Below, in pieces: positions 1,796-64,000 of a stretch of DNA of 64,000 nucleotides (position 1 is its first letter; every line of letters starts with the position of its first letter). The notes beneath the pieces are model-generated. The model was not told where the DNA came from. It ran no database searches and saw nothing but the letters and a program-made list of their open reading frames with translations. Source of the stretch: Hemileia vastatrix (lineage: Eukaryota > Basidiomycota > Pucciniomycetes > Pucciniales > Zaghouaniaceae). The translations under genes and the position numbers were made by a program. The stretch spans positions 5,289,001 to 5,353,000 of the forward strand of contig JASXTE010000008.1 in NCBI GenBank assembly GCA_030280995.1. Direction: 5' to 3'.

Positions 1796-3297
1796 TGTCA
1801 GCCTGTATATCTCCAGGACTGAGTAAAAAGTAATTATAAGTTATGTTAAACACATGAACTATACATGGGAATAATAAATAAGAGTACACAAATAGTATAC
1901 ATAAGTAAAATTATGATAATACACAAAAAATGCCATTATAACACCTTATATACACGCATATATCCACCTTTTATAGGTCTTATGTACTTAATATTAAGTT
2001 GGAGTATGTTAGGGTAATCTTAAGAACCTTAAGTATAAGGCTACATAATTTTTAAGTACACTTAAAGCTGTTATATTCATTGTTTTATGCAAAAAACAAG
2101 AAATGCGCTTTATTTCACTTAAAAGTTGACTATATGCGCTATAAAATTGAGAATATCAAAATTGCGCTTTGACAGATCAATTGGGCTCATTTAGAACTAT
2201 TGATTTGGCTATTTAAATGCATAAAAATAACACTTTTCAAATTTGGTGTTTTTTATGCCAGAAATGGCTTCTGTGTACTGGCCACATACTGCCTGCTTTT
2301 TTCCCGTGTGAATAGCTTCATTTTTAGCAAAGTTAGCTTTTTTCACACTATAATTACCCCACATTCTACGCCCACTGTGGGGAAACACACTAAAATAGGC
2401 GACAGGCGCTTATTTAGTGTCCTAGCTTAATTAATAATGCATTGACCTTATTTATATGCACTAATTTCATTAATAACCTCACTCTTGGCACTTTATTTCA
2501 TCACCATGCTTAAATTCGCCTAATTTTAGTCAAGGATTTACCCGTGCAAGCGCCTGCCAAGAACTGCATGTAGTTACCCCACATCTCACGCTCTTTTTTA
2601 AGTTTTTGGGTGGTTTCTCAGTCAATTTTGGTTATTTTTGAATGGGAATTTCACGTAGTATAATGTCAGGATTAGCCCCATTATTTCTACAGTCAATCCC
2701 CCTTATTATTAAGCTATTATTAACCTTAAAAGGTCTCCTTTAGTCTTTAATATTATTGTTTAATACGCATATACTCTCTTTTTGTCTTTTTCTTTAATTT
2801 TGATGGATTTCCCTTATTATTACAGGATTTTTGCCATTGTTACTCTTCTAATTATGTCATGGGTTACTAGGAATGTTGATGGGCATGTCTATTAGTTGTT
2901 TAGAGGCGTCATTAACTGTGTATTGGGTGGTACATCAAGGGAATCATTGGGGAACTCAGTGTGTATAAAAGGAGGAGGTTTTTGGGTTGTATTTCTTCAT
3001 TCTTTATCATTACAATTTAACCAATATAACCAAACCAATTACAATACATATCAATTAGTACTTTTATAAGACTTTTGAATAGTATCTGAATTTATATAAT
3101 CTATTTTTCTACCAACTATAAAGATTGTAAGCCATATATAAGAATAGTGAGAATTATATTACTGAGACCTTTATATTTGATTAAATTTTACAACTTAGTG
3201 GATTAGAACTACAGTATTCATATAGGACCATTAAAATCTTCTAGACAACTGACTATTCAAGCTAGTTCACGTCCTTGTACTTGACCCTAGCCTGACA
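1796..3297 (+). repeat. 5' LTR of A'
   Basis: TG...CA-bounded copy matching 10024-11524 throughout. It contains a clear TATA box at 2964. Confidence 0.93.
2964..2970 (+). promoter_or_regulatory. TATA box in the 5' LTR of A'
   Basis: TATAAAAGGAGG lies about 330 bp before the LTR end, and the same motif is at 11191 in the 3' LTR. It is the likely Pol II promoter core, placing the U3/R boundary near 2990-3000. Confidence 0.65.
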
Positions 3298-3314
3298 ATT
3301 GGGGACCTTTCCTC
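3298..3314 (+). other. Primer-binding-site candidate of A'
   Basis: ATTGGGGACCTTTCC follows the LTR directly. Elements B (32282) and E (near 62963, minus) carry almost the same segment although their LTRs are unrelated in sequence, which fits a functional primer site. I could not assign the primer. Confidence 0.5.
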
Positions 3315-3484
3315 AAGAATTCTGTTATAATCCTGTAAGTGAAATTTTCAAAAGAAGGTGCACGTAAATAATATCCCTATAGAAATATTTGGATAATTAC
3401 AACAGGTTGGGGTCACTTATATAGTGATTTCAGAAAAAGAAGCCCTGTTATATTATAAAATTGTGATATTGAATCAACAATTTT

Positions 3485-3650
3485 ACCACTAATTTAACTT
3501 ATAATTGTTATTAGTGGGTCTGTCAATAGACCAATTAAATTTGAGATCTTTGCAGATAAAATTTTTACCACTAATTTAACATATAATTGTTCTTAGTGGG
3601 AGTCTGTCAATAGACCAATTAAATTTGTGATCTTTGCAGATAATAAACCA
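3485..3650 (+). repeat. Tandem 82-bp repeat with hairpins in the A' leader
   Basis: Two imperfect copies start at 3485 and 3567. Each begins ACCACTAATTTAAC and carries an inverted repeat CCACTAA...TTAGTGG, then TCTGTCAATAGACCAATTAA. It lies in the untranslated leader between the primer site and gag. Confidence 0.7.
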
Positions 3651-3966: not shown

Positions 3967-4504
3967 ATGTGTGACAACAATGACATTGTAAGTAATAAGG
4001 TAAAACCTTATAACTTAAGACCTAGAGCTGAAAGACCTGTTACAGGACATTCAAATGGAGGGCCAGGACTCTCCCATAATCAACAACACTCCGTCAATGT
4101 CTCTGGAGGAAAGGGAAAAGCTTTTAAAGCAGGTTTCAATAAAGAAAACAAAAAATACTTTACAAGAACAAGTTCACTCCCTATCCACCCTACTGAACAC
4201 CTTGACAATAAGAGTCAACAATATAGTGGACCAGATCAACAATCTGGAAAAGAGAGCAGCTCAAGGTTTCATAGAGGTCAACCAAGCTCTAGTGGACATA
4301 AAGACTCAACCACCAACAGTGGCACCCAACAATTCCATAGCAACACCTCCAGCCCAAGAGGAGGACCAAAAAATTACTGTAAGCAAATGGAAATGGGATT
4401 GGTACGCCCAAAACTACAACAATCCTCAACAGCAGGGCTCCAGCAGTCACCCTTACAGGGGAAAGGCAAGGAGAGGCAGGGGAAGTGGGATAAGACCTTG
4501 GTAA
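3967..4504 (+). CDS. ORFx of A': spliced +1-frame protein overlapping gag (join 3967-3987, 4046-4504; 159 aa)
   Basis: I do not recognise this protein. The +1 frame is open from 4046 to a TAA at 4502-4504 and begins with a conserved MEGQ near 4055. An intron-like segment 3988-4045 (58 nt, GTAAGT...TTACAG) would join the Gag ATG (exon 1: MCDNNDI) in phase to this frame. Visible features are a charged helical region (SLEEREKLLKQVSIKK, then LQEQVHSL), the motif KWKWDW at 4385-4402, a basic HPYRGKARRGRG tail and a final Pro-Trp. The same motifs recur in the same relative frame in elements B, C and E. No membrane segment or signal peptide is seen. Splicing is inferred, not shown. An alternative is internal initiation at ATG 4055. 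Confidence 0.6.
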
Positions 4505-7500
4505 GTCATCCAACTTCTTATGATCAATTATATCAACCTGAAAATAAATTACTTATAGGTAATGAGATTGATAAGGAAATATTGGATATTATTGATAAGG
4601 ATTTAAAGGATTATTCATTTGAACAGAATATGTTAAACTTGTCTTTACATGAGGACAATGTAAATAGTTTTATTGATCACCAGGGAAATACTATTAATAT
4701 AAAAATGGAATCAAATGAATTAAATCTTGGCCCTGATAATGAGTCTTCTGAATTGGACACGGAAAAAATAGAATATTTTTTAAAAGAGAATCCAATGGAA
4801 TCAAAAATAATAAGTAAATTATTATTGAGAATTGAAAAATTGGAAGAGTTCTCAAAAGAGTCAAACATTAATACAGAAAGTGTATTATTACAACTAACAC
4901 AATCATTGAGTACCACAGCCAATAAATTAAAAATTATTGAAAATTCAAATAATGAATTAATCAATGAGAATAAAAGATTAAAATCTGAGATTAGAAATTT
5001 AGAAAGTAAATTAGAACACTCTCAGAATATTATGGCTACCATAGAGGGACGTGTAAAATTGTCTTTTTCAAATATAAATGATACCTTAAATCATGTACCT
5101 GTGATAAAAGATAGGTTACAAAGAGTAGAAATTGAAGTAGCTAACATTTTGAAAAATACTGAAACAATAAAAGATAATACCTCTTATGTAGAAAGAGTAC
5201 CAGTTTTTATGAAACACTCTGATGATAAACCAATGATTGAACATGAACATAGTGTTATGGGCTCTGAGAATATAAAATCAGTAAAAGATGAAATAAATGA
5301 TCATCTTTCTAAAGTAAGTGAATTACTCAATATTCCTCAGGTTAGGGAAGCAAAAACTAGCCAAAAGAACTGGCCTAAGTTAGATCAGTACCCTTCTTTT
5401 GACGGGGATTCAAAATCTGATTGGCAACAATTCATACAAAGAATTGATAACTTAAAATTTTCATATAAATTACCTGATGAAGAAATTACTTCAAAGTTAA
5501 TATCTTTATTTACAGATTTGGCCTTATTATGGTTTGAATCTGTATTGAGTGAGGGAATTAATTACTCCTGGAATGAATGGAAGGCACTAATTGAAAGGCA
5601 ATTTGGTGGCCCAAAATTTAGAATCACTCAACAAAGACTGTATGAAAGGGCCAGATATAATCCAAATGCTGGAGATAAACCCATGGTCTTCTTAATGAAT
5701 TTAATAAAAATCATGAAAGCTATGGATCCAAAAATGGATTATGAAGAGTGGAAAGAAAAAATAATATACAAATTGCCTATATCAGTTAGAGACATTATTG
5801 TTGCTAGAACTGAAACTGTCAGAGACACCTCTGGATTCATTAATATATGCAATGAGATATTATTAAACCACAAATATGAAACCAAGTATAGTAATTACAG
5901 ACAAAGTGTTGACGTGGTAAAACCTACTACAAGTAAGTTACCAGTGGAAAAGAAAAAACCTTCAGCTCCCCTTGTCCCTAAGAGACAAGAAAATAACACT
6001 TGTTACAAATGTAATGAACCTTGGGTTAAAGGTCACACGTGTAAGAAAAGAATAAATGTTATTGAAACCTCACAGAATTCTGAACCTAGTAATCATGAAG
6101 ATGAGAATGTGGAATCCAGTGAGGATTGCAAGAGTAACATATCTTACAGTGATGATGAAAATGAGATATTTGTATTAGAACAGGATATAATGTTCCTGAA
6201 TGATGCTATACCTCATACAGACACATCTTTAACTTTTATAGAGGAAGCTGAAATAATTAAAGATGTATCTCATGATACTTACAAAATAACACCTATCAGA
6301 GCACCTATTATCATATGTGGAAAAGAAATGAATGCCATTCTTGACACTGGGGCTGCAGGTAGTGTAGTTTCACTTAATGCATTAATGAAACTTGATAGTA
6401 AGTACCAGGAAAAACTAGAACCTGTTCAGACAAAGAACTGGAGGGGTTTTGGTTCAGTATTAAATCCAATTGGCAAATACAAAACTGCTGTATTCTTTAA
6501 ATATAATAATGGATATGTTAGAGCAGTTTGTGAATTTGTAGTAATGGATAATAATAATTGTAGTGATTGGTTTATTATTGGCAATGATTTATTGACAAAA
6601 TTTGGCATTAAACTAGATCCTGCAAACAGTTGTTTTACCATAGGGGTGAATGGTAAAAGAAAATTCAAAATATGTTCTGAAAATTCAGTATATACCATTT
6701 CTCCTAGAGAAGAACAACTGCAAGGTGGAAGAACCACCAATGAAGTGGGTGAATTGGAAAATGAAATCCAAAAGGCCTCTTTCAGTCCTCAACTCTCAAA
6801 AATTGAACAAGAAGATATTTTGAGATTGATTAAATCATATCCTATGGCATTTGCTCATGGCTCAAATGAACTAGGATTGGTCAAAGACCATGAGATGAAA
6901 ATCTCTTTAAGCTGTGATCTGGATAATATTCCTGGAAGTTTAAAAAAGAAACCTTACCCAGCATCTCCTGCAAAAAGGAAAGATATTGAAGACAATATAA
7001 AATTGTTGTTGGAAATGGGTATTGTTGAAAAAGTGGACACAACACCTAAGTATTGTGTCATTTCACCAGTATTAATCTCTTATGAAAAAGATAAGGCAAG
7101 ATTATGCGGTGATTATAGAGCTCTGAATACATATACAGTAGATGATATTTACCCTCTACCAAGGATAGCTTCTATCCATGCTACCTTACAAGGAGCAAAA
7201 TATATTTCCTGTCTGGATGGGAACAAGGGTTACCACCAGATTCCTGTGGAAAGAAATTCTCAAAATTACTTATTAATAACCACACATATGGGTATATATA
7301 AGTATGTGAGAATGCCATTTGGCCCAAAGAATGCCCCTTCAGTCTTCCAAAAATTGATGGATAGTGTTTTTCATCAGGAAATGGTTGAAGGATGGTTATT
7401 GGTCTATATTGATGACATCATAGTGTTTTCAAAGACATATGATGAACATTTAAATCACCTGAAAAGAGTCTTTCAAAAAATGGATGAAATTAATATGACT

Positions 7501-9840
7501 ATTGCATTAAAGAAATGTAAGTTTGGATTTCAATCCTTGAAAGTACTTGGACATGTTGTATCTGGATTAAAAATTTGTGTTGACCAGAATAAAGTGGCAG
7601 CAATTAAAAACATTGGGATACCTAAAAATGTAAAAGAGGTTCAAAGTTTTTTGGGTATGTGTGGATATTATAGACAATATATTAAAAATTACCAATCCAT
7701 TGCAGCCCCTTTGACAACATTAATCAGGAAGAATGAAGCTTTCATTTGGAATAATGAAAGACAACACGCCTTTAATAAATTAAAGGAATGTTTAATGTCA
7801 GCTCCAATATTAGGACTGCCAGATTTCACCCTACCTTTTATCTTTTACACTGATGCAAGTTTCATAGGTTTGGGTGCTGCTTTACAGCAGAAACAGATAA
7901 TAAATGGAAAATTATCTGAAGTAGTTATCTGTTATATATCCAGAACCTTAAGAAAAACAGAATTAAGGTATGGTGCCACACAGCTAGAATGTTTAGCCGT
8001 GGTGTGGGCTTTGGAGAAACTTCATTACTATCTGGAAGACCAGAAGTTTGAACTTATAACAGATTGCAGTGCAGTAAAATCATTACTAAACATGAAAACA
8101 CCTAATAGGCACATGTTTAGATGGCAACTAGCTGTACAAGAGTACAGAGGAAGAATGACAATCACTCACAGAGCAGGAACATTGCATTCAAATGTGGATT
8201 TATTATCCAGAAGTCCTTTGCCAAATGATGCTGACAACCCAGCTTATGTACCTGAAAATGAGGTTATACATATATTTGGGATTTATATAGTGGATTTAGA
8301 AGAAGAGTTTATGCAAACTATATTGGAAAATTATTCATCTGATAAAGATTTGTCTAAACTATCTACCATTCTTAATGATCCAACAAATGCCTCCATGAGT
8401 GCATTAATTAAAACCTTGCCTCCAAAGTATAAAAATGCGTTGGAAAAAGGTAAACTATCAATTGAAGATGGATATATATATTACAGGAAAAAGTTAAGCA
8501 ATGTAATAGTAATACCACCTTCTATGAAAGAGTTAATGTTGAGTACTTGTCATGACGACATCTTAGCTGGTCATTTCGACTTTAACAAAACATTAACCAG
8601 AGTTAAAAATACAGCCTGGTGGATAAACATGAAAGAGGATGTACAAAAATACATTGAAACATGTGACTCTTGTCAGAAATCTAAAAGATTAACTGGGAAG
8701 AGAGCTGGGTTGTTACAACAAATAGAGCAGCCAAAAGCTCCATGGGAAATTATAAACATGGATTTTGTAACTGGCTTGCCATTAGCAGGAAAAGAAAGTT
8801 TCAATTCTTGCTGGGTAATAGTGGATAGATTAACAAAAATGTGTAAGTTTATCCCTACCCATAAAGAGGTATCTGCTAAAGACTTGGCGTTACTATGGTG
8901 GACTCAAATGATGAATACTGCTGGGTTCCCCAAAGCCATAATCTCTGACAGAGATCCTAAATTTACTTCAGAGTTCTGGACATCTTTGATGGAAGTATCA
9001 GGTTGTCAATTAAAATTGTCTACAGCACACCATCCACAAACTGATGGGCTGGCTGAGAGGATGATACAAACTCTAGAAGACATGATCAGAAGATATTGTG
9101 CCTTTGGATTAGAATACAAAGACAATGAGAAATTCACACATGACTGGGTAACATTAATTCCTGGCCTTGAATCATCTTATAACAGCACAACTCATTCTGT
9201 AACAGAGAAGAAACCATTTGAACTCTGGCTGGGATATGTACCAAATACCCCAGTAAATCTTTTAAATAAACTACCAAGGTTGGATATACACCCTGGCACT
9301 AAATCCTTTATTCATATGCAGCAAATGTGTAGAAAGCATGCAGAAGAATGCATCCAAAAAGCATTTGAATATGAAAAGAAAAGGTGGGACAAATCTCATA
9401 AAGAATTTGAATTTAAAAAGGGAGATGAAGTCCTCATATCAACACTACATTTTAACTTACAAGGTAATGTTAAATTAAAGGATCCCTTTGTAGGACCTTT
9501 TGTAGTAAATAAAATGGTTGGGAATAATGCAGTGGAAGTCATATTATATGCTCCATATGATAGGAAACATCCAGTTTTCCCTATCTCATTATTAAAACCT
9601 TACCATGCAAATGATCCTGACTTATTTCCAAAAAGAAGGGGAAGGCCTAAAAAGCAACCTGAAGAAATTTTGGAAAAAGCAGAGATTGAAAAAATACTCA
9701 AGAAAAGAATCCTTACTAAAGAAAAAGGAACTGAGTATTTACTAAGATTTAAAGGGAAATCAAATGAATTTGATAAATGGATACCTGAAAAAGAAATTTC
9801 TAATTTATCCACCCTTCTTAAAAAATTTAAACAGAAATAA
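3967..9840 (+). CDS. Gag-Pol polyprotein of A' (intact, 1957 aa)
   Basis: One uninterrupted frame. ATG 3967 is chosen because upstream in-frame codons are only TTG and because homologues start at the same place. Residues 1-200 are low-complexity and overlap ORFx. About 470-640 is a retrotransposon Gag capsid-like region. A zinc knuckle (CYKCNEPWVKGHTC) spans 679-692. The aspartic protease DTG is at 793-795. Reverse transcriptase spans about 990-1190 with YIDD at 1147-1150. RNase H acidic residues are near 1296, 1341 and 1366. The integrase H2C2 finger begins near 1529. The integrase triad is D1599, D1661 and E1697, with 35 residues between the last two. A GPF module is near 1840 and a chromodomain near 1908-1955. 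All catalytic residues I looked for are present. Gag and Pol share one frame, so the ratio may be set by processing. Confidence 0.95.
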   Translation: MCDNNDIVSNKVKPYNLRPRAERPVTGHSNGGPGLSHNQQHSVNVSGGKGKAFKAGFNKENKKYFTRTSSLPIHPTEHLDNKSQQYSGPDQQSGKESSSRFHRGQPSSSGHKDSTTNSGTQQFHSNTSSPRGGPKNYCKQMEMGLVRPKLQQSSTAGLQQSPLQGKGKERQGKWDKTLVSHPTSYDQLYQPENKLLIGNEIDKEILDIIDKDLKDYSFEQNMLNLSLHEDNVNSFIDHQGNTINIKMESNELNLGPDNESSELDTEKIEYFLKENPMESKIISKLLLRIEKLEEFSKESNINTESVLLQLTQSLSTTANKLKIIENSNNELINENKRLKSEIRNLESKLEHSQNIMATIEGRVKLSFSNINDTLNHVPVIKDRLQRVEIEVANILKNTETIKDNTSYVERVPVFMKHSDDKPMIEHEHSVMGSENIKSVKDEINDHLSKVSELLNIPQVREAKTSQKNWPKLDQYPSFDGDSKSDWQQFIQRIDNLKFSYKLPDEEITSKLISLFTDLALLWFESVLSEGINYSWNEWKALIERQFGGPKFRITQQRLYERARYNPNAGDKPMVFLMNLIKIMKAMDPKMDYEEWKEKIIYKLPISVRDIIVARTETVRDTSGFINICNEILLNHKYETKYSNYRQSVDVVKPTTSKLPVEKKKPSAPLVPKRQENNTCYKCNEPWVKGHTCKKRINVIETSQNSEPSNHEDENVESSEDCKSNISYSDDENEIFVLEQDIMFLNDAIPHTDTSLTFIEEAEIIKDVSHDTYKITPIRAPIIICGKEMNAILDTGAAGSVVSLNALMKLDSKYQEKLEPVQTKNWRGFGSVLNPIGKYKTAVFFKYNNGYVRAVCEFVVMDNNNCSDWFIIGNDLLTKFGIKLDPANSCFTIGVNGKRKFKICSENSVYTISPREEQLQGGRTTNEVGELENEIQKASFSPQLSKIEQEDILRLIKSYPMAFAHGSNELGLVKDHEMKISLSCDLDNIPGSLKKKPYPASPAKRKDIEDNIKLLLEMGIVEKVDTTPKYCVISPVLISYEKDKARLCGDYRALNTYTVDDIYPLPRIASIHATLQGAKYISCLDGNKGYHQIPVERNSQNYLLITTHMGIYKYVRMPFGPKNAPSVFQKLMDSVFHQEMVEGWLLVYIDDIIVFSKTYDEHLNHLKRVFQKMDEINMTIALKKCKFGFQSLKVLGHVVSGLKICVDQNKVAAIKNIGIPKNVKEVQSFLGMCGYYRQYIKNYQSIAAPLTTLIRKNEAFIWNNERQHAFNKLKECLMSAPILGLPDFTLPFIFYTDASFIGLGAALQQKQIINGKLSEVVICYISRTLRKTELRYGATQLECLAVVWALEKLHYYLEDQKFELITDCSAVKSLLNMKTPNRHMFRWQLAVQEYRGRMTITHRAGTLHSNVDLLSRSPLPNDADNPAYVPENEVIHIFGIYIVDLEEEFMQTILENYSSDKDLSKLSTILNDPTNASMSALIKTLPPKYKNALEKGKLSIEDGYIYYRKKLSNVIVIPPSMKELMLSTCHDDILAGHFDFNKTLTRVKNTAWWINMKEDVQKYIETCDSCQKSKRLTGKRAGLLQQIEQPKAPWEIINMDFVTGLPLAGKESFNSCWVIVDRLTKMCKFIPTHKEVSAKDLALLWWTQMMNTAGFPKAIISDRDPKFTSEFWTSLMEVSGCQLKLSTAHHPQTDGLAERMIQTLEDMIRRYCAFGLEYKDNEKFTHDWVTLIPGLESSYNSTTHSVTEKKPFELWLGYVPNTPVNLLNKLPRLDIHPGTKSFIHMQQMCRKHAEECIQKAFEYEKKRWDKSHKEFEFKKGDEVLISTLHFNLQGNVKLKDPFVGPFVVNKMVGNNAVEVILYAPYDRKHPVFPISLLKPYHANDPDLFPKRRGRPKKQPEEILEKAEIEKILKKRILTKEKGTEYLLRFKGKSNEFDKWIPEKEISNLSTLLKKFKQK
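3988..4045 (+). other. Predicted retained intron at the gag start of A'
   Basis: 58 nt, donor GTAAGT, acceptor TTACAG. The length is not a multiple of three, so removal shifts frame by +1 while retention keeps Gag-Pol open. The counterparts in B and C are also 58 nt, and that in E is 55 nt. Confidence 0.6.
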
Positions 9841-10023: not shown

Positions 10024-11524
10024 TGTCAGCCTGTATATCTCCAGGACTGAGTAAAAAGTAACTATAAGTTATGGTAAACACATGAACTATACATGGGAAT
10101 AATAAATGAGAGTACACAAATAGTATACATAAGTAAAATTATGATAATACACAAAAAATGCCATTATAACACCTTATATACACGCATATATCCACCTTTT
10201 ATAGGTCTTATGTACTTAATATTAAGTTGGAGTATGTTAGGGTAATCTTAAGAACCTTAAGTATAAGGCTACATAATTTTTAAGTACACTTAAAGCTGTT
10301 ATATTCATTGTTTTATGCAAAAAACAAGAAATGCGCTTTATTTCACTTAAAAGTTGACTATATGCGCTATAAAATTGAGAATATCAAAATTGCGCTTTGA
10401 CAGATCAATTGAGCTCATTTAGAACTATTGATTTGGCTATTTAAATGCATAAAAATAACACTTTTCAAATTTGGTGTTTTTTATGCCAGAAATGGCTTCT
10501 GTGTACTGGCCACATACTGCCTGCTTTTTTCCCGTGTGAATAGCTTCATTTTTAGCAAAGTTAGCTTTTTCACACTATAATTACCCCACACTCTACGCCC
10601 ACTGTGGGGAAACACACTAAAATAGGCGACAGGCGCTTATTTAGTGTCCTAGCTTAATTAATAATGCATTGACCCTGTTTATATGCACTAATTTCATTAA
10701 TAACCTCACTCTTGGCACTTTATTTCATCACCACGCTTAAATTCGCCTAATTTTAGTCAAGGATTTACCCGTGCTAGAGCCTGCCAAGAACTGCATGTAG
10801 TTACCCCACATCTCACGCTCTTTTTTAAGTTTTTGGGTGGTTTCTCAGTCAATTTTGGTTATTTTTGAATGGGAATTTCACGTAGTATAATGTCAGGATT
10901 AGCCCCATTATTTCTACAGTCAATCCCCCTTATTATTAAGCTATTATTAACCTTAAAAAGTCTCCTTTAGTCCTTAATATTATTGTTTTATACGCATATA
11001 CTCTCTTTTTGTCTTTTTCTTTAATTTTGATGGATTTCCCTTATTATTTCAGGATTTTGGCGGTTATTACTCTTCTAATTATGTCATGGGTCACTGGGAA
11101 TGTTGATGGGAATGTCTATTAGTTGTTTAGAGGCGTGATTAACTGTGTATTGGGTGGTACATCAAGGGAATCATTGGGGAACTCAGTGTGTATAAAAGGA
11201 GGAGGTTTTTGGGTTGTATTTCTTCATTCTTTATCATTACAATTTAACCAATATAACCAATCCAATTACAATACATATCAATTAGTACTTTTATAAGACT
11301 TTTGAATAGTATCTGAATTTATATAATCTATTTTTCTACCAACTATAAAGATTGTAAGCCATATATAAGAATAGTGAGAATTATATTACTGAGACCTTTA
11401 TATTTGATTATATTTTACAACTTAGTGGATTAGAACTACAGTATTCATATAGGACCATTAAAATCTTCTAGACAACTGACTATTCAAGCTAGTTCACGTC
11501 CTTGTACTTGACCCTAGCCTGACA
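10024..11524 (+). repeat. 3' LTR of A'
   Basis: Matches the 5' LTR (1796-3297) over its whole length. The TATA box is repeated at 11191. Confidence 0.93.
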
Positions 11525-11880
11525 ATAATCCCCTGTAGCCTCATCACTTATTATACACTCCACAAATTAAATACAATTTTATTATGTTTATATTTTTTTT
11601 ATTAGTAACACAATTCTAATTAAAATTTTATATAACAATTTAAAGGTTGCTTTAAGTCTGATAGTAATTAAAAGTGTTTGCCGCGCAGAACCCTTACCTT
11701 AAATAATATTATTATTAATAAAGTCTAAGTTTTTGTCATCTCTCAAGTTACTCGCTGTTGTTTTCCTTTTAAATAAATTAAATATTCTATTATAGTTTAT
11801 TTCTTTTATCTTTTCCCTTGTCCTCCTCCTTTTTCCTCCTTTTCTCCTCTTTTCCTTACCTTCTTCTAGACGACTGACCA
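11525..11880 (+). repeat. Probable remaining U5 end of the element A LTR
   Basis: Its content follows the last 350 bases of solo LTR S1 read on the minus strand: CATCACTTA(T/C)TATACACTC, Pol II-like T/C-rich run, then CTAGACG near the end. It ends CTAGACGACTGACCA at 11880. It would complete the LTR begun at 843. The match is by eye and moderate. Confidence 0.5.
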
Positions 11881-23700: not shown

Positions 23701-26168
23701 AGATCTTCCTTTATATTGAACCACAGAATTACATCTGTAAAATTCTGGTTTTAATACTTTTTTGGAGGGAGAAATCTTAAATTTCTTCTTCCCATTCATC
23801 CCCATTGTGAAACATTGGTTTGAGGGATCCAATTTTATGCCATACTTGGTTAAAATATCATTCCCTACAATAAACCAATTGCTCAAGTTATCATTTTTCA
23901 TGACAAAAAAATCACAAATAGCTCTTACAGAACCATGGTTATATTTAAAAAACACTGTGGCTTTGTATTAACCAATGGGGGACAAAACAGAGCCATACCC
24001 TCTCCAATTTTCAGAAATGATAGGCATCCGTTTTGATTTATAGTCCTGATCCACTGAAGCAAGTGCTTTTTCAGATACTACACTTCCTCCAGCTCCAGAA
24101 TCCAGAACAACTTCAATTCTGGTTCCATTGATCAAGACTGGTGCCTTGAGAGGGGCAATAACAATTGAGCTATCCTCAATGTTCTTTATGATCTCAGAAT
24201 CTTCAACTGTAGATAAATCATTATTATCAATATCAATAGCATTTAAATAATGGATATCCTTTTCCAGCATCAAGATTTCTTGTTGAGATTCATATGAAAT
24301 ATTGCTGGCACAATCACTTGAAGTATCCTCCAGTGCTACTGTGTCATCAGCATGCTCCTCTGTTTGTTCTACAAGATTTATCTTCTTGTCACAAACATGG
24401 TCCTTTTGCCAAGGTTTGTTGCACTTGAAAAAAGTGTTTGTTGCATACTTTTTAGGTGCAACAGGGGCAGAAGGCTTCCCAACCTTTTCCAGAGGTTTCT
24501 GTTGAAAAGTTGAGGGTTTTTCTCAAGTGGTTCTAGGAATGAATCTTCTGGCATCATACTTGTTGTTTAGAAGAATCTCATTACAAGTATTGATGAAAGA
24601 AGAAGGTTCTCTGCTGAACTCAGTCCTAGCCACTATCAAGTCTCTCAAAGACATTGGTAATTTATAAAGGATCCTGTCCTTTCATAACTCAAACTCCATT
24701 TTTGGGTCCATAGCTCATAAGATTTTTACAAGTTTCATTAAGAACTCAATAGGTTTATCAGTAGAAGAACTATATCTAGTTTCCTCAAACTGCCTTTGTT
24801 GAGCCATCCTAAACTTGGAGCCCCCAAATTGTGCTTTAATTAATTTCTTCCAATCTTCTCATGAGTAATCATTCCCATATAATAGGACAGATTCATACCA
24901 CATAAGGGCTACCTTGGTAAATAAAGAAATTAACTTAGACACAACTTCCTCATCTGAGAGTTTGTAAGAGTTTTTCAAGTTATCAATTCTTCAAATAAAT
25001 TGTTGCCAATCAGAAGAAGAATCACCATAAAATGTTGGGTATTGGTCAAGTTTTGGCCAATTCTTTTGATTTGAAGGAGTCTCCTTAGTACTAGCTTGTT
25101 TCTGAGTAAGAATCAGCTGTAACTTCTCTAATTGGGCTTTAATCTCATTGTTCAATCCTTCTTTTGAAGATCCTGGTGCATCATAAATTTTTGATGGAAA
25201 CTCAGTGGTATCAACAGGTATTTCTGGAACTATTTTTACTTTAGATGAACTAGCCACAGGTAATATTTGAGCATCCTGCACTATATTTTCCTTTAAAGAA
25301 ATGTCAGAATATTTCTGGTCATTCAACAATGAGTTCAATTTTTCTTCAATGGTTGTTAGTCTTGTTTTTATTCTTGGAAGACTAGATAAACTCTCATTGA
25401 TAGTTGCAAAAGATAACTGATTTTTATTTTGAAAAGATGAATAATGGTCATTCAATCTCTTCAGATTCATCTTATCTATCTCCAGCTCTTCACAACAGAT
25501 AGATACAGTCTCTTTTAATTTGGACAAATCATTTTTGATATTTTGCCACAAAGAAACCTTCTTTTCATATGTTGCCTTATAATTAAACAAATCATCAGAG
25601 ACTTTCTGCAATTCACTCCTTAAGGATTGATACCCTTTCTCAGTTAATAAACCATTAAACTTCTGAGTTAATTGCATATTGTTCATAACATGATTCTTTT
25701 TTGCAATAATATCTCTCAAGTACTCATCATTATTCTTTGATACATCTGGAGTGTTTCTCAATAAGGAAACTGAGTAACTTTCCAGAATCTCATAAAACTC
25801 AGGGTCAAGAGTTTCAGCAATTACAGCCATATCAGGGTTAATCATTGAAGTAGCAATTAAAAGTAATGGATTAGATACATGAGTTATTTGTCTACTGCTC
25901 CCAGCCTCTACTGGTCTCAAGGTTTCTTCTTCCCTCTCAGATTTACCTGAAGGAACAGAATCAGCTACAAGAAATGGCACTTGAGAATCAATAGAGGGGC
26001 TTACCAGGGTTTTCTGGGTATAACCATATTGGGTTTTCTTCTTCTTTTGCCTCCTTGATAGGGATGAGGAGGTGTGGGGTTGACCTGGCTGGGTCTTGAT
26101 GGACCTGCCTGAGGTAACTGATGCTGATTTTGAGACAGGTTGTCCCACTGAGTGTTTAACCAATCCCA

Positions 26169-26616
26169 CTACCACTTGGACACCTCCACTTTTTCTTGCT
26201 GCTGAGGAGCCAATGGTTGATGATCCCTGGGGGGAAGAGGTTTCTTCTTCTCTTGAAGAAAGGTATCTATCTTCCTCAACTTTTCTTCCAGAGCATCTAC
26301 CCTTGCCCTTACTCTCAAGTTTTCTGTCCTTAGCTCCTTTATGTGAGTTAACAGATTCTTTACCTGTTGAGGCAATGGCATCTTTTTTATCCTGAATCCT
26401 TTTGGAAGTTCTTCTGGTGGGTTTATTACAGGTTTCTGATCCTGAGTTGTGTCAACCAGGATTTCCACTTCTTCCATCTCCACATCCTGTTTGGGGCAAG
26501 GATTTATTAATTTGAGAAATTCTCCTTGTTAAAGGAGAACTTACAGAAGTAGGCTCATCATAATCAATTAAGTCTAGTTCCTCTTCACATGCAGCAGAAC
26601 CACTTTGGTCAGTCAT
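26169..26616 (-). pseudogene. ORFx of element C: spliced frame with premature stop (join 26616-26545, 26486-26169)
   Basis: Exon 1 (MTDQSG..., 24 codons) ends at donor GTAAGT (26544). A 58-nt intron-like segment (26487-26544) ends CCAAACAG. Exon 2 starts GATGTGGAGATGGAAGAAG and is in phase, giving a frame homologous to ORFx of B. It runs to TAG at 26169-26171, which replaces the CAG of the B copy inside the motif KWQWDW. So the protein would stop after KW, before the basic tail. Past that stop the same frame still keeps WDW and, further on, a Pro-Trp followed by TAA. The splice sites match those of B in position and length. Confidence 0.55.
26487..26544 (-). other. Predicted retained intron at the gag start of C
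   Basis: 58 nt, GTAAGT...AACAG, at the same place and of the same length as in B. Removal shifts frame by +1 into ORFx. Confidence 0.55.
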
Positions 26617-31477: not shown

Positions 31478-32281
31478 TGTCAGCCAGGCTACTAGACTTA
31501 CCCAGTGAAATAATTAATTATTTACTGGATGAAGCCGCACCCTATCATTTTTAATTATCATTTAATTATCATTTAGTTACATTAAAATTAGTTATAATAA
31601 ATTAACTAATTACAAAATGTTAAAATTAAATTAATTAATTAAATAAATAATTAAAATTAAAATTATAATTTTGTCCCTTATATTTTTCTCTAACACCGTG
31701 CTCATTTGACAGGTTGGGAAAAAATAAAATTTTATATTAAAAAATAAATACAAAAATAAAATAAGATTTAAATATTCAAATAAATCAAATTTCTTATTTA
31801 GGATTGACTTTTACAGTAAATATTAAAATTATTTATGTATTTCTGACATACTCTGTAAATACATCTTTTTGACGCCTTCTTTTTGGAATAACTTTATTAT
31901 TTGAAATACTCTTTCTGGAATGTTCTTTTTCTCTCTTTTTTCCTACTGTTTTTAGAATTTGATTTCCGTGCTTTGTCTCTCCTTTGCCTATAAAAGGCCT
32001 CTCTTTTTGTTGTCTTTTGATCATTCTATTTTACCAACTCATTTTATTACAACAATAACTTACTAAACACTTATTCTTATATTCTATATTATTAGTATTT
32101 ACAATAGCGTAATTCTAAAGTATAATTTATATTAATATTTTAAAAACCTACCTCTTTTATTGAGTAAAAAATTCAACTTGAATTAAGAAATACGTACAAA
32201 TCTGTTGAGAACCCTTTATAGCCTTTTAAATCCTCGTAGAACTACGTACCAAATCTTCTAGACAAAAAGTATACCTTGACA
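31478..32281 (+). repeat. 5' LTR of B
   Basis: TGTCAGCC...TTGACA. TATA box at 31989. Confidence 0.95.
31989..31996 (+). promoter_or_regulatory. TATA box in the 5' LTR of B
   Basis: TATAAAAG within CCTATAAAAGGCC, about 290 bp before the LTR end. The corresponding box is present in the C LTRs on the minus strand. Confidence 0.65.
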
Positions 32282-32741: not shown

Positions 32742-33240
32742 CAGTTGAAAATTGTCCTGATTAATTTGAATTTTAATTGTTCCAGTTGACAAACTGTCCT
32801 GACAATAAAATATTTTATTAAATAAAATAATTATTATAATTTTTCAGTTGACATTTGTCCTGATTAATTAATTGTTCCAGTTGACAAATTGTCCTGACAA
32901 TTATATTTTTTTTAATAAATAATTAACATTTCATTACTTCAGTTGACTTTGAGTCCTGGTAATCCAATAAATCTTTTAAGTAATAAAATTCATATTTAAA
33001 TTACTTCAGTTGACATTAAGTCCTGGTAGTTAATTAATCAGTTAAAATAATTTTTATTGATAAAGATTCATATTTGATTATTTCAGTTGACAATAAATCC
33101 TGGTAATAAATTAGTTGATTTAAATCCTGAAAATAAAAATTAATAGAAATTCTAATTTATTTCTACAGTTGATTGCATTATCCTGGTTTTAAATTTGTTT
33201 TTATTAATTTTATTTAAGTTGATTTTTATCCTAAAAAGAT
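32742..33240 (+). repeat. Array of about ten CAGTTGAC-N5-GTCCTG motifs in the leader of B
   Basis: Motif starts are near 32742, 32783, 32845, 32878, 32940, 33007, 33084, 33112, 33166 and 33217. Spacing is irregular, with AT-rich DNA between. Many copies contain a small inverted repeat, for example GACTTTGAGTC. The leader of C shows the same array. It lies just before gag, where packaging signals often lie in retroelements. Confidence 0.7.
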
Positions 33241-33340
33241 TTTTTTTTATTTATTTTTATTTTATTTCTGTTAAATAAAAATTAAAAATAAAAGACTAAT
33301 TAATTTTGTCTCTTTTTCTTCATTTCAGTAGAATCTTAAA

Positions 33341-34040
33341 ATGACTGATCAAAGTGGTTTTACTGCACGTGAAGAAGAACTAGACTTAATTGATTATGAT
33401 GAGCCTACTTCTGTAAGTTCTCCTTTAACAAGAAGAATTTCTCAAACTAATAAATCCTTGCCCCAAACAGGATGTGGAAATGGAAGAAGTAGAAATCCTA
33501 GTGGACAATACTAAGGATCAGAAACCCAAGACAAACCCACCAGAAGAGCTTCCAAGAGGCTTCAAGATAAAAAAGATGCCGTTGTCCCAGCAGATAAAGA
33601 ATCTGTCAACCCACATAAAGGAGTTAAAGACAGACAGCTTAAAACTAAAGGTAAGGGTAGATGCCTTGGAAGAATGGGAGAAAAGAAAAAATACTTCTCT
33701 CCAAGAGAAAAGGAAACCTCTTCCTCCCAGGGATCAACAACAATTGGCTCCCCAATCCCAAGAGATGGTAGAAGTGTCCAAGTGGCAGTGGGACTGGCTC
33801 AACACTCAGTGGGACTACTTGGCTCAAAACCAGCATCAGTTACCTCAGGTAGGTCCATCAAGGCCCACCCAGACCAATTCCACTCCTCCCCACCCTTATC
33901 AAGGAGGCAAAAGAAGAAGGAAGCCCAATATGGTGATACCCAGCAAACCCTGGTACGTCCCTCTATTGATTCTCAAGTGCCTTTTCTTGTGGCTGACTCT
34001 GTTCCTTCAGGTAAATCTGGAAGGCAAGATGAAACCTTGA
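33341..34040 (+). CDS. ORFx of B: spliced +1-frame protein (join 33341-33412, 33471-34040; 213 aa)
   Basis: I do not recognise the protein. Exon 1 is 24 codons (MTDQSGFTAREEELDLIDYD...). The intron-like segment 33413-33470 is 58 nt, with donor GTAAGT, a branch-like ACTAAT and acceptor AAACAG. Exon 2 continues in phase with DVEMEEVEILVD. A predicted helical region follows (FKIKKMPLSQQIKNL through KVRVDALEE), then KWQWDW (33780-33797) and a basic HPYQGGKRRRK region. The usual end Pro-Trp-stop is changed: TAA has become TAC at 33954, so the frame runs about 28 codons further into hydrophobic residues and stops at 34040. Unlike the Gag frame, ORFx has no internal stop in this copy. Confidence 0.6.
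33413..33470 (+). other. Predicted retained intron at the gag start of B
   Basis: 58 nt, GTAAGT...CTCAAACTAATAAATCC...AACAG. This is the best-formed intron of the set, together with that of E. Confidence 0.65.
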
Positions 34041-39397: not shown

Positions 39398-40201
39398 TGT
39401 CAGCCAGGCTACTAGACTTACCCAGTGAAATAATTAATTATTTACTGGATGAAGCCGCACCCTATCATTTATAATTATCATTTAATTATCATTTAGTTAC
39501 ATTAAAATTAGTTATAATAAATTAACTAATTACAAAATGTTAAAATTAAATTAATTAATTAAATAAATAATTAAAATTAAAATTATAATTTTGTCCCTTA
39601 TATTTTTCTCTAACACCGTGCTCATTTGACAGGTTGGGAAAAAATAAAATTTTATATTAAAAAATAAATACAAAAAAAAAATAAGATTTAAATATTCAAA
39701 TAAATCAAATTTCTTATTTAGGATTGACTTTTACAGTAAATATTAAAATTATTGATGTATTTCTGACATACTCTGTAAATACATCTTTTTGACGCCTTCT
39801 TTTTGGAATAACTTTATTATTTGAAATACTCTTTCTGGAATGTTCTTTTTCTCTCTTTTTTCCTACTGTTTTTAGAATTTTATTTCCGTGCTTTGTCTCT
39901 CCTTTGCCTATAAAAGGCCTCTCTTTTTGTTGTCTTTTGATCATTCTATTTTACCAACTCATTTTATTACAACAATAACTTACTAAACACTTATTCTTAT
40001 ATTCTATATTATTAGTATTTACAATAGCGTAATTCTAAAGTATAATTTATATTAATATTTTAAAAACCTACCTCTTTTATTGAGTAAAAAATTCAACTTG
40101 AATTAAGAAATACGTACAAATCTGTTGAGAACCCTTTATAGCCTTTTAAATCCTCGTAGAACTACGTACCAAATCTTCTAGACAAAAAGTATACCTTGAC
40201 A
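39398..40201 (+). repeat. 3' LTR of B
   Basis: About 99.5 percent identical by eye to 31478-32281. Confidence 0.95.
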
Positions 40202-54739: not shown

Positions 54740-55025
54740 AGATGAGATAGCAAGATGAAAAGGAGCAGAATCAAAGAGAAGAAATGAGGAGAAATTCTGA
54801 GTGGATCGGATGAGAATGGGAATGCGCAGCAAGGTAGAAGGCATATGCAGAGAGTAGTTCAAGATGTGGTTATGGCAGAAAGTAGGTCAATATGTGGTTA
54901 TGACAGAAGGTTATCCAAGATGTAGTTATGAAAAATTGAGTAAAAAAATGTCGGATAAGAGGTGAACATTGACACGTAAAGTGTCTAATAACCCAATTAT
55001 TAGCAGAAAAATTGCGGAATATAAT
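54740..55025. repeat. Right subterminal region of G, homologous to MITE M1
   Basis: Reads as the inverse of M1 bases from about 30790 to 31000 (GTGGTTATGACAGAA, GGATAAGAGGTGAACATTGA, AATAACCCAATTATTAGCA), then stops at 55025 where the E LTR begins. Confidence 0.8.
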
Positions 55026-56202
55026 TGTCAGTATAGTCTAGTAAATCAGTATGATATAATAGTGTTTATTTATGGTCCTACTACTTATTGATAAATGATT
55101 TAGTGATTAAACCTCAGGGGAAGACTAATAGAATAGTTATACTCAAATAAAACTCACAATACTTGGATTTTAATGCGTGCTTAGTGCTGGAAAATAGATA
55201 AATAAAATATAGTTATAGCTTATATAAAGATAAAATCAATTTATAGTGGCTTTATAATATATTTCTAAAGGTTAATAATTGTATATTAGTGTTTGTTAGA
55301 GTTGTAGTAATTGAATGATGATAAATAACCGGCAAAATCCCTCCTTACTTATACCCAAATCCACTGGAGTGCACAGACCTTCAATCCAGATGATGTCACT
55401 GCTATCCCCGGCAATTACAGCACTGTGAGGGCCCATCACCTCCCCATGGCGTCCTCTTCAAGCAGTTTCAACACCCATACCTCCAGTAAGGACCCTCCAT
55501 CACTATTAATAATAACACTGATCCATACCATAAATAGAAAATCCAGATAAAAGCGGATACCATAAAGAAACAGGTAAAATAAACAATCAAAAAGAGATTT
55601 AATGAAACTAAAAGCATATAAAGAAACAAATAAAATGTCCAAGCCCCCAATAACATCCCCAAGAATCCACATTAACCCAGAAACATCCCTCCAACCCATA
55701 AATCCGTGAATAACCATCCAAGGAAGTAATTTGAATTGTCCAAACTGGGTGTATGCACCTGATATAGGTGTCTATGCTTCTGTAGGCGTTGTGAGCCCAC
55801 TGATTTCGTCCATTTGACCTAAAATAAGCAGAAAAACAAAGGTTATAGGCTATTAAGGGGCTAAAACCCACTTATATACCTAAATATACATAATATACTG
55901 CATATTTCACTGAATATGAGATTTATGTATACATATAAGCTTATGTATGTCAATAATTACTTCATATCACTTAAGATAAGTATATTATGACTCCATTAAC
56001 ACCTTAATAAATATTATTAGGCCATGGATAAGCTATTTAAACTATTATAAGTTATATAATAGAATAATAATTATATATATATATAATAAAATAATATATA
56101 TTATTATTTTAACCTTATTTTTAAGATATAAGCCTAATATACTTAAGGTTATCTTATTTTAAGCATAAGAAATACTCAGTCGTAAGGATATTTAGGCTGA
56201 CA
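55026..56202 (-). repeat. 3' LTR of E
   Basis: Minus strand TGTCAGCCTAAATATCC...ACTATACTGACA. An internal GC-richer part (55330-55800) is shared with the other LTR and gives chance frames up to about 130 codons. Confidence 0.9.
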
Positions 56203-60550: not shown

Positions 60551-61906
60551 TATGGTTCAATAATATTTCATTGCAAATATTAATAAAGTCAGAATATTCA
60601 GTAACATTTAATGTTCTAGCTACAACAATGTCTCTGACAGATATAGGTAATTTATATATTATCTTATCTTTCCATAAGTTAAAATCCATATGAGGCTCAA
60701 TGGCTTTTAATATTTTGTTAAAATTCATTAAAAGTACCATAGGCTTGTCACCATTCAACGGATTATACCTAGTCTTCTCATAAAGTCTCTGCTTAGTAAG
60801 CCTGAATTTAGAACCTCCAAATTGTTTTTCAATAAGTTGTTTCCATTCAGCCCAAGAGTAGTCTCTACCCTCACTTAAGACAGCTTCAAACCATAATAAA
60901 GCAACATCCTTAAATAAAGAAATTAATTTTGATGTTATCTCTTCATCTGGTAACTTATATGAGAATTTCAAGTTGTCAATTCTTTGAATAAAATGTTGCC
61001 AATCAGAGCTGGATTCCCCATCATAAGTTGGGTACTGATCTATCTTAGGCCAGTTTTTCTAATTGGATTTTATCTCACTAATCTTAGGTAAATTCAACAA
61101 CTCATTCACTTTTGATAAATGGTCTTGTATTTCTTCCTGCACGGATTTGTGACTTACATTTTCAGATTTGACACTACCACCAGATGGTTTTAATTGTGGT
61201 GGTATAGGGAAGGAATGAGATTCACTTTTGCCAATGAAAGGATTATTATTATATTGATTATACTTATGATTATCCTGGTTCATTAGTAGATTGGCAGTTT
61301 CAATCTCAACTTTAGTTAATCTTTGTAGCAACTCAGAGACACTTTGATTTGTCTGGGCAAAAGATAACTTTGTTCTTGATTCAGTTTTCAATAAATGTGT
61401 TTCATATAATTTTTCCAACTCACAGAATTTGTTTGAAAGTTCATTATATTTATTACTCAATGAATCATATTTAAGAGTTAGAGACAAATTTTCTTTCTCT
61501 AATTCTTTGTTACGTGTTGCTAATTGAGAAATGTTTAATGTCAAGGAAGAAATTGTATCACTAGTGAGCTTAACTGTCTGTTCCTCACAATCAGTCATTC
61601 TATTCCACAATGCTGAAACAATTCTATGGACAGTTGGATTATTGTTAAAATATTCCATGTCCTCCTTTTCAATTCTTTCACTCTCCTGTGAACTTCTCAT
61701 CTCACTAGTAGGTGGTTGCAACTTAGGATTAACTTTATTATCATTGTAAATAGTACTGTTATTGTGGACAAAAGACAAGTCAGGTGTATCTACTCTAAAA
61801 CCTAAATTTCTTAAATCCTCCTCTATTTTTTGTACAGATTTAACATCAATAGAATTACCTATATTGTAATTATCAGTATTATGTTCAATCTGAGAGGGTA
61901 ATCTAC

Positions 61907-62453
61907 TTACCAAGGGATGGTTGCCAGTCCTGATTTTTGGCGCTTTTTTCCCTTGTAAGGGTGAGCTAAGGAAGTCAGATGAGGGGGTGGATCCCTGTTG
62001 CAACTGTGGCTTGTCCACTGGTGGTGAAACCAGTCCCATTTCCATTTTTCCACCAGGATTTTCTCCTGGGAGTGAGTTGACCCGCCTTGGGTAGGGGGTT
62101 GCTGATTTGATTGACTGGGCTGGCCTCCCTTTAATTCTGCCAATGCCTGATTCATCTGCTGAAACCCTACCTTTCAATTGTTTTGCAACTGCTCTACCTC
62201 TTTGAACATGAGAGATTTTGATTCCTCCAACTTCAGAACCTGTTTGGCCAGGTGGGACAGTTGATCCTGAAGAGGAGGAGACGTCTTTTTTATAGTTATC
62301 TTTTTTAAGAGGGCGTCCTTTTCCTCTATACTCATGCTTTCTGGCTGGGGGTACTGTTGGCCCTCCATGGTGATGTCCTGGAAAGTTTTTGTTAGCTTTA
62401 GACCTGGTATTATAAGCAGGCTTTTCACTTACACTGTCCTGGGGAGCACTCAT
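61907..62453 (-). pseudogene. ORFx of element E: spliced +1 frame with one nonsense codon (join 62453-62433, 62377-61907)
   Basis: Exon 1 (MSAPQDS) meets donor GTAAGT at 62432. A 55-nt intron-like segment (62378-62432), with a perfect branch-like GCTAAC and acceptor TTCCAG, leads to exon 2, DITMEGQQYPQPE, in phase. The frame shows SIEEKDALLKKITIKKT, LQDQLSHLAKQVLKLEE, then TGA at 62174 where A' is open. Beyond it come MNQALAELKG, the motif KWKWDW (62030-62047), a basic HPYKGKKRQK region and the final Pro-Trp with TAA at 61907-61909. Aligned with ORFx of A' the residues agree far better than the overlapping Gag frame does. One stop makes this copy inactive. Confidence 0.6.
62378..62432 (-). 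other. Predicted retained intron at the gag start of E
   Basis: 55 nt, GTAAGT...GCTAAC...TTCCAG. Length is one more than a multiple of three, as in the 58-nt introns of A', B and C. Confidence 0.65.
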
Positions 62454-62963
62454 ATTGTTAAGAATGAAAATATTTTACGTCTACAAAAGGAAAAAACTCT
62501 ATGGAATTAGTAGACAAATAGTATTAGCAATGATATTGATAATAAAAAAGCAATGGAGCTTACCCTGAATTTATATCTTTATTTATTTAAATAAAATGTA
62601 AGGAAATTTGAAAAAATCTGTTAAAAATATAATAATAAGTTTAACTAGACCTCTATCAGGGTGAATAATTAGCTTACCAAGCTTTAACCAAATACCAATT
62701 TAATTGGGTGTTATATTGGTGTCCAAATACCAAGTGAAATTGGGTTTATTTTGGGTACAGTTACTACTGTAAATATCTAATTTTTATGATAAAAAATTAG
62801 TACAATTATTTTAAGGGTTCTTTTCCGCAATCAATGAGTTATGATGACCCACTAATATGCAGCAGACCCAAATATTTGGTTAATTTTGAGCTGTACTAAG
62901 GTAAAAATCACGTCCCAAGGCTTATACTAAATAATAAGTAAAATATAAGGAAAGATCCCCAAT
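62454..62963 (-). other. Leader and primer-binding-site candidate of E
   Basis: Next to the LTR the minus strand reads ATTGGGGATCTTTCC, the primer-site candidate shared with A' and B. The leader has a short tandem duplication around 62685-62760 (CCAAATACCAATTTAATTGG and CCAAATACCAAGTGAAATTG). Confidence 0.55.
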
Positions 62964-64000
62964 TATCAGTAGAGTCTAGTATATAAGTATGATATAATAG
63001 TGTTTATTTATGGTCCTACTACTTATTGATAAATGATTTAGTGATTAAACCTCAGGGGAAGACTAATAGAATAGTTATACTCAAATAAAACTCACAATAC
63101 TTGGATTTTAATGCGTGCTTAGTGGTGGAAAATAGATAAATAAAATATAGTTATAGATTATATAAAGATAAAATAAATTTATAGTGGCTTTATAATATAT
63201 TTCTAAAGGTTAATAATTGTATAGTAGTGTTTGTTAGAGTTGTAGTAATTGAATGATGATAAATAACCGTCAAAATCCCTCCTTACTTATACCCAAATCC
63301 ACTGGAGTGCACAGACCTTCAATCCAGATGATGTCACTGCTATCCCCGGCAATTACAGCACTGTGAGGACCCATCACCTCCCCATGGCGTCCACTTCAAG
63401 CAGTTTCAACACCCAGACCTCCAGTAAGGACCCTCCATCACTATTAATAATAACACAGATCCATACCATAAATAGAAAATCCAGATAAAAGCGGATACCA
63501 TAAAGAAACAGGTAAAATAAACAATCAAAAAGAGATTTAATGAAACTAAAAGCATATAAAGGAAACAAATAAAATGTCCAAGCCCCCAATAACATCCCCA
63601 AGCATCCACATTAACCCAGAAACATCCCTCCAACCCATAAATCCTTGAATAACCATCCAAGGAAGTAATTTGAATTGTCCAAACTGGGTGTATGTGCCTG
63701 ATATAGGTGTCTATACTTCTGTAGGCGTTGTGAGCCCACTGATTTCGTCCATTTGACCTAAAATAAGCAGAAAAACAAAGGTTATAGGCTATTAAGGGGC
63801 TAAAACCCACTTATATACCTAAATATACATAATATACTGCATATTTCACTGAATATGAGATTTATGTATACATATAAGCTTATGTATGTCAATAATTACT
63901 TCATATCACTTAAGATAAGTATATTATGACTCCATTAACACCTTAATAAATATTATTAGGCCATGGATAAGCTATTTAAACTATTATAAGTTATATAATA
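62964..64000 (-). repeat. 5' LTR of E (truncated by the window)
   Basis: Matches 55026-56060 closely. Its inner end reads TGATA instead of TGACA. Confidence 0.9.

Follow-up and report, generated by a model that had tools for sequence, protein, structure and literature searches.

Can one start codon serve two proteins of a retrotransposon, with a small intron that is either kept or removed deciding between them? The question is raised by four Ty3/Gypsy elements, here called A, B, C and E, in a 64,000 nucleotide (nt) stretch of the Hemileia vastatrix genome (assembly GCA_030280995.1, contig JASXTE010000008.1, positions 5,289,001 to 5,353,000; this whole stretch is "the window", and its own numbering is used below). 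In each of them the ATG of the Gag frame is soon followed by a short intron-like segment, intron 3, whose removal would join that ATG to an overlapping +1 frame that we call ORFx. The best reading of the results below is that two overlapping frames are entered from one ATG and that splicing chooses between them.

A candidate retained intron behind the Gag ATG

The pieces concerned are as follows (rows without further remark are read from the sequence; plus and minus are strands):

3967..3987, plus, shared-ATG exon of A, 7 codons
3988..4045, plus, intron 3 of A, candidate retained intron, GTAAGT...TTACAG, 58 nt, 3n+1
4046..4504, plus, ORFx exon of A, +1 frame, ends in PW and TAA, internal ATG at 4055, conserved across families
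33341..33412, plus, shared-ATG exon of B, 24 codons
33413..33470, plus, intron 3 of B, GTAAGT...AAACAG, 58 nt, branch-like motif CTAAT towards its end, precisely missing from spliced copies
33471..33953, plus, ORFx exon of B, +1 frame, to W; the frame continues to 34040 if intron 4 is kept
26545..26616, minus, shared-ATG exon of C
26487..26544, minus, intron 3 of C, 58 nt
26004..26486, minus, ORFx exon of C, +1 frame, with a stop at 26171-26169 and a 0-frame stop at 26454-26452
62433..62453, minus, shared-ATG exon of E, 7 codons
62378..62432, minus, intron 3 of E, GTAAGT...TTCCAG, 55 nt, CTAAC branch-like motif, precisely gone from 7 spliced copies
61910..62377, minus, ORFx exon of E, +1 frame, with a TGA at 62176-62174 that interrupts the window copy

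Direct reading bears out the first-pass annotation in that GTAAGT follows the shared ATG after 7 codons in A and E and after 24 in B and C, and in that the segments (58, 58, 58 and 55 nt in A, B, C and E) all have the length 3n+1 and all end in AG. Of the two protein motifs that it placed in the +1 frame behind the segment, KWxWDW stands (as KW*WDW in C), but HPYxGK is replaced by HPYQGG in B and C. With intron 3 kept, translation from the ATG would cross the intron and continue as Gag-Pol; with its 55 or 58 nt (3n+1) removed, the same ATG would be joined to the +1 frame and ORFx would be made. As three diverged families (A, B/C and E) share donor, acceptor, phase and protein, and two of them have spliced DNA copies, the arrangement is more than chance.

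Genomic copies that lack exactly the intron

If some spliced RNA is reverse transcribed, the genome should hold copies without exactly the intron. We searched 748 Mb in 791 contigs for the predicted spliced junctions, marked here by a slash: ...CCTACTTCT/GATGTGG for B, ...CAGGA[CT]AGT/GACATC for E and ...GACATT/GACATT for A. The exact B/C junction is present at 39 places versus 2,732 intron-containing ones and the exact E junction at 7 versus 2,664, and reversed-pattern controls for the B and E junctions gave 0 places. The spliced shares, about 1.4% (B/C), 0.3% (E) and 0 (A), are rough, as the search patterns were unequal in length and in allowed mismatches.

Fifteen spliced copies were examined, every one of the 7 for E and 8 of the 39 for B (of these 8, 2 had first stood out by their open-frame length and 6 were taken from the junction list), and intron 3 is gone in 15 of 15. 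In the first one found, L049 (= L072), the 55-nt segment is missing together with a segment of the leader. Over the whole set, eight losses besides those of intron 3, spread across five copies, are leader introns or intron 4 (below). Among the E copies, L071, L074, L076 and L077 have lost intron 3 alone, L072 leader intron 2 and intron 3, L075 intron 3 plus the two leader introns (a later acceptor being used for one), and L073 all four introns; among the B copies, L078 and L079 have lost introns 3 and 4 and the remaining six only intron 3. L083 has one 21-nt leader gap without explanation, and L081 has lost the ATG too. The B spliced copies are 74% to 98.5% identical to copy L011, and in trees of the ORFx exon (short search) spliced copies are dispersed among unspliced ones. 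L072 and L073 begin with the end of a long terminal repeat (LTR), which points to ordinary LTR reverse transcription; their 3' ends were not found within the pieces retrieved.

It had been proposed that unspliced RNA makes Gag-Pol and spliced RNA makes ORFx. For B/C and E this holds up, since genomic copies join the predicted sites and their ATG reads into ORFx; for A there are 0 spliced copies. Judged by these DNA copies, intron 3 is used in two of the three families, B/C and E.

Are there introns besides this one? The first-pass account of the features was incomplete, as it overlooked two leader introns of E and, where ORFx ends, an intron 4 signature:

4501..4558, plus, intron 4 signature of A, GTAAGT...TTATAG/GTAA, 58 nt, 3n+1; removal would restore TGG TAA
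33953..34010, plus, intron 4 of B, GTACGT...CTTCAG/GTAA, 58 nt, gone from spliced L078 and L079
25947..26004, minus, intron 4 signature of C, GTAAGC...CTTCAG/GTAA, 58 nt
61859..61910, minus, intron 4 of E, GTAAGT...AATATAG/GTAA, 52 nt, gone from spliced L073
62618..62677, minus, leader intron 1 of E, 60 nt, gone from L073 and L075
62499..62563, minus, leader intron 2 of E, 65 nt, TACTAAT branch-like motif, gone from L072 and L073; also gone, with a later acceptor used, from L075

In all four window copies the intron 4 donor lies within the last W codon and an AG/GTAA acceptor lies 52 or 58 nt downstream. Intron 4 would thus start in the last ORFx codon, and its excision turns TG/GT... into TGG TAA, so that the stop would be restored and ORFx would end in PW. 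The unspliced frame of B continues past W, and spliced L078 and L079 stop at W as predicted.

Three observations concern the leaders. The later acceptor in L075 puts alternative leader splicing on record. The B leader (32773-33340) is a tandem array of TTCAG TTGAC...CCTG GTAA-like repeat units that resemble very short exons between introns, and spliced L069 and L070 retain its last 400 nt. The A leader has an 84-bp unit twice (3481-3643), about 0.3 kb upstream of the Gag start, that contains TTTGCAG.

Selection on ORFx and the state of the two frames

Is ORFx maintained as a protein? As its first-pass description as a conserved protein would lead one to expect, +1-frame substitution rates among gathered genome copies are not neutral for shared variants (omega about 0.43 in B and 0.17 in E, from copies picked by a 26-nt pattern, so that the first 16 nt of the ORFx exon are not free), while singleton variants are near-neutral. 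A within-family substitution count on a list assembled by ORFx similarity was set aside as biased and redone with these pattern-picked copies. By these ratios ORFx is under purifying selection in B and E. It is also conserved between the three families where the overlapping Gag is not, and the overlapping Gag frame is open far more than chance predicts.

The stop in the +1 frame of C (26171-26169) had been reported as the one defect; it is there, but it is not the only damage, since three of the four window copies have stops that were overlooked. The 0 frame, that of the ATG, is stopped in window B at codon 58 (33512-33514) and in window C at codon 55 (26454-26452), which keeps both copies from translating from the shared ATG into Gag; in window E the +1-frame TGA lies upstream of KWxWDW. 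Both frames are open only in A among the four. The idea that Gag does not start at the shared ATG, at which the B and C stops hinted, was dropped, as other copies are open: the 0 frame is open to the end of the overlap in 27 of 30 B loci (window copy: L009) and the ORFx frame is stop-free in 28 of 30 E loci (with L039 as the window copy and L049 a spliced one), counts that are biased upwards because the loci were selected by ORFx similarity. The 26-nt pattern, which spans the first 16 nt of the ORFx exon, is blind to most of ORFx; of the 20 B pieces taken with it, L085 was left out for wrong coordinates. Stops short of the overlap end interrupt the 0 frame in 8 of the other 19 copies and ORFx in 8, as is expected for decaying copies. 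The stops in window B and E are on this comparison local damage and not family features.

What protein would be made?

ORFx is about 160-185 amino acids long and opens with the 7 or 24 residues of the shared-ATG exon, followed by a predicted long helix, KWxWDW, a basic tail and the terminal PW. Fold prediction with two sequences places residues 17-84 in a single long helix (block means up to 97) and residues 103-121, across KWKWDW, in a short one, and leaves a basic tail disordered, with a mean pLDDT (predicted local distance difference test) of 67 and a pTM (predicted template modelling score) of 0.32. A motif like a nuclear export signal was seen in A only (chance level 0.06) and was not used.

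ORFx is probably a self-associating basic protein. It may aid the unspliced RNA (in export, stability or packaging), as do CERV of the Caenorhabditis elegans element Cer1 and retroviral Rev. The role that we prefer, tentatively and by analogy, is in RNA export or RNA handling, because a basic protein made from spliced RNA of an element that needs export of its unspliced RNA resembles Rev and, more closely, CERV; a role in assembly or as a chaperone comes next. It is likewise conceivable, though we would not call it likely, that fungal chromoviruses run a programme like that of complex retroviruses, in which RNA spliced once or several times gives, from the Gag start codon, an overprinted, self-associating basic regulator that licenses export of the intron-retaining genomic RNA.

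How well does the explanation survive?

Several results weigh against a splicing switch, or against a defined role for its product. Spliced copies are a small minority of places. When intron 3 of E was placed automatically as a GT-AG gap, the mismatch limit was met in 4 of 7 copies, and in the other 3 the same 55-nt gap was placed with flanking mismatches over the limit. No constraint shows on the Gag residues in the overlap, with omega at 1.2 and 3.1 (Fisher P 0.47 and 0.18), and Gag-frame stops among shared variants are not clearly depleted (2 versus 2.6 expected in B, 0 versus 1.3 in E), so the argument that Gag uses the shared ATG is the open frame in the compared copies. An ORFx profile search of about 5.8 billion proteins, which detects only relatives with short exact words in common, gave 771 word-sharing candidates and none at E 1e-3; Pfam gave nothing near a cut-off, the PDB only weak matches (best E 0.041, a coiled coil), and the leucine-rich and basic motifs of ORFx are close to chance levels. 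In viral contigs 18 stretches matched an ORFx pattern and 0 were confirmed.

Family A is the weakest case. Its spliced junction occurs at 0 places genome-wide versus 2,785 intron-containing ones; its intron 3 has no CTRAY branch-like motif, where B has CTAAT and E CTAAC; and with its Gag residues fixed, chance alone leaves the +1 frame open in 1-8% of trials, which makes an open frame by itself weak evidence here. The A ORFx is nonetheless conserved with those of E and B. Splicing in A may be rare or fall at other sites, or its spliced RNA may seldom be packaged; the evidence for A consists of the conserved sequence signature.

Which other explanations deserve weight? The one that survives best, itself improbable, is that leaky scanning on unspliced RNA lets ribosomes start ORFx at its own internal ATG (MEGQ/MEEV), with splicing incidental. 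An internal ATG followed by G does lie 9 nt past the acceptor in all four window copies, in E within ACCATGG; the shared ATG, however, has A at -3 in all four and the internal ATG of A has C, and after splicing the shared ATG reads into the ORFx frame across a D-[IV]-x-M-E stretch that the four have in common. Quite improbable is a poison switch, in which splicing would be regulation or host silencing of Gag-Pol and ORFx a by-product: splicing does put Gag-Pol out of the ATG frame, and in Cryptococcus spliceosomes stalled on transposon introns feed silencing (cited in PMC8892269), but purifying selection on ORFx in two families and its conservation among three are not expected of a by-product. 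Least probable of all is coding overlap alone, with Gag composition keeping the +1 frame open and the GT and AG sites due to chance, which the openness expected by chance and the lack of spliced copies leave standing for A only and which the 46 spliced-junction places versus 0 in the reversed control, and an ORFx conserved where Gag is not, already contradict for B/C and E.

For B/C and E the genomic copies document splicing at the predicted sites and reverse transcription of the spliced RNA, together with selection on ORFx and a Gag frame open beyond chance, all as read from DNA. We infer that both proteins are made from the shared ATG. That splicing has two outputs in B/C and E is very probable; the whole explanation, one ATG with two protein outputs set by splicing, is probable to a somewhat lesser degree.

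The elements and their abundance

A, B, C and E are Ty3/Gypsy chromodomain elements. Pfam matches reverse transcriptase (RT), RNase H and integrase of Ty3/Gypsy type in all four (in the frames of A and B and in pieces of C and E) and a C-terminal chromodomain in A, B and E, with no chromodomain match in the C piece; protease matches lie slightly below the cut-off in A and E, and B has no protease match at E 0.01. The LTRs and main frames are:

1796..3299, plus, 5' LTR of A, 98.3% identical to 10024-11526
10024..11526, plus, 3' LTR of A, pair of 1796..3299
3967..9840, plus, Gag-Pol frame of A with RT, RNase H, integrase and chromodomain, protease just below the cut-off (Pfam)
31478..32281, plus, 5' LTR of B, 99.5% identical to 39398-40201, flanked by the target duplication GAGAT
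39398..40201, plus, 3' LTR of B, pair of 31478..32281
61059..62453, minus, Gag frame of E from the shared ATG, 464 codons to the stop (open reading frame list)
62961..64000, minus, 5' LTR of E, cut by the window end, partner 55023-56061, 98.2% identity

The GAGAT duplication at B is 5 bp, and no target-site duplication of A was seen. For C no LTR pair was found; it is similar to B throughout its length. A second, partial pol end lies upstream of the A 5' LTR (230-801; 74-78% identity to 9265-9840 of A).

Among the best 120 of 1,540 RT relatives, the nearest fungal-named ones by identity are Puccinia striiformis proteins (50-55%), some metagenome proteins reach 52-66%, and the highest-scoring ones come mostly from pseudoscorpions, at a lower identity (33-46%). 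For each of the three families, about 2,700 places genome-wide closely match its acceptor pattern, and a 149 amino acid ORFx identical to that of A is encoded at 142 of 150 scored places; the near-identical abundant copies are read as very recent bursts.

Comparison with known systems

A spliced regulator from an RNA that, unspliced, encodes Gag-Pol is a hallmark of complex retroviruses. Of the plant elements compared below, CRR is also a chromovirus.

The first-pass account knew of no description of such dual coding for chromoviruses. No description of an overlapping spliced protein in a fungal chromovirus was recognised in titles and abstract starts of the open-access literature, which is weak evidence of absence; the strategy itself does have a precedent in the Gypsy element Cer1 (PMC10309623), the one Gypsy retrotransposon that we found described with such a spliced regulator.

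Plant elements share parts of the arrangement. Barley BARE1 has a facultative 104-nt intron in an otherwise single gag-pol frame, and there too a small optional intron leaves a nearly full-length spliced RNA that encodes one protein; as that report has it, the product is Gag itself with a new stop and no second protein (PMC3735527). Arabidopsis EVD makes unspliced GAG-POL RNA and a spliced short RNA, shGAG, which ends early and gives excess Gag, and no overlapping second protein is described in the consulted parts of these sources (PMC8892269, PMC12786077). The spliced copies reported here differ from both, as they read the ORFx +1 frame from the ATG and not Gag alone. The plant Gypsy elements Ogre, CRR and Bagy2 have transcripts with functional introns, but Ogre splices between open reading frames, CRR removes RT and Bagy2 gives env, and the citing text mentions no retained intron at the Gag start (cited in PMC3735527).

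Complex retroviruses likewise make a small Rev-type regulator, self-associating on RNA, from spliced RNA and Gag-Pol from unspliced RNA (PMC10309623 in part); ORFx is likened to Rev by expression strategy and not by sequence comparison. Cer1 is closer. In the report on it (PMC10309623), Cer1 is a Gypsy family element with no stop between gag and pol, its unspliced RNA is genome and Gag-Pol mRNA, and a five-exon spliced mRNA with one coding exon in another frame encodes a separate protein, CERV, whose mutants show that it is needed for genomic RNA export. The B and E spliced copies have the same ingredients (a spliced mRNA and an exon in another frame for a non-Gag protein), and no such copy was found for A. 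CERV also has a predicted leucine zipper in its N-terminal half and a splice acceptor ahead of its predicted ATG, but it has 517 amino acids, its exons 1-3 use the gag frame and a large open reading frame after pol supplies the C-terminal half (PMC10309623), whereas ORFx overlaps the Gag N-terminus only and would share just the 7 or 24 residues before the intron with Gag. The likeness is by description and not by sequence comparison, and the export role is mutant-based for CERV and by analogy for ORFx.

Splicing footprints in two very abundant families, with the same signature in a third, point to a strategy that may occur more widely, or evolve more readily, than had been assumed. An overlap in which one frame is conserved and the other merely open is a clear natural case of overprinting, and spliced DNA copies allow retroelement splice isoforms to be read from a genome without RNA. 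If the explanation is true, the splicing history of the switch stands as DNA copies in the host genome, and an export-licensing ORFx would be a regulator placed unlike CERV and Rev, another invention of the same switch.
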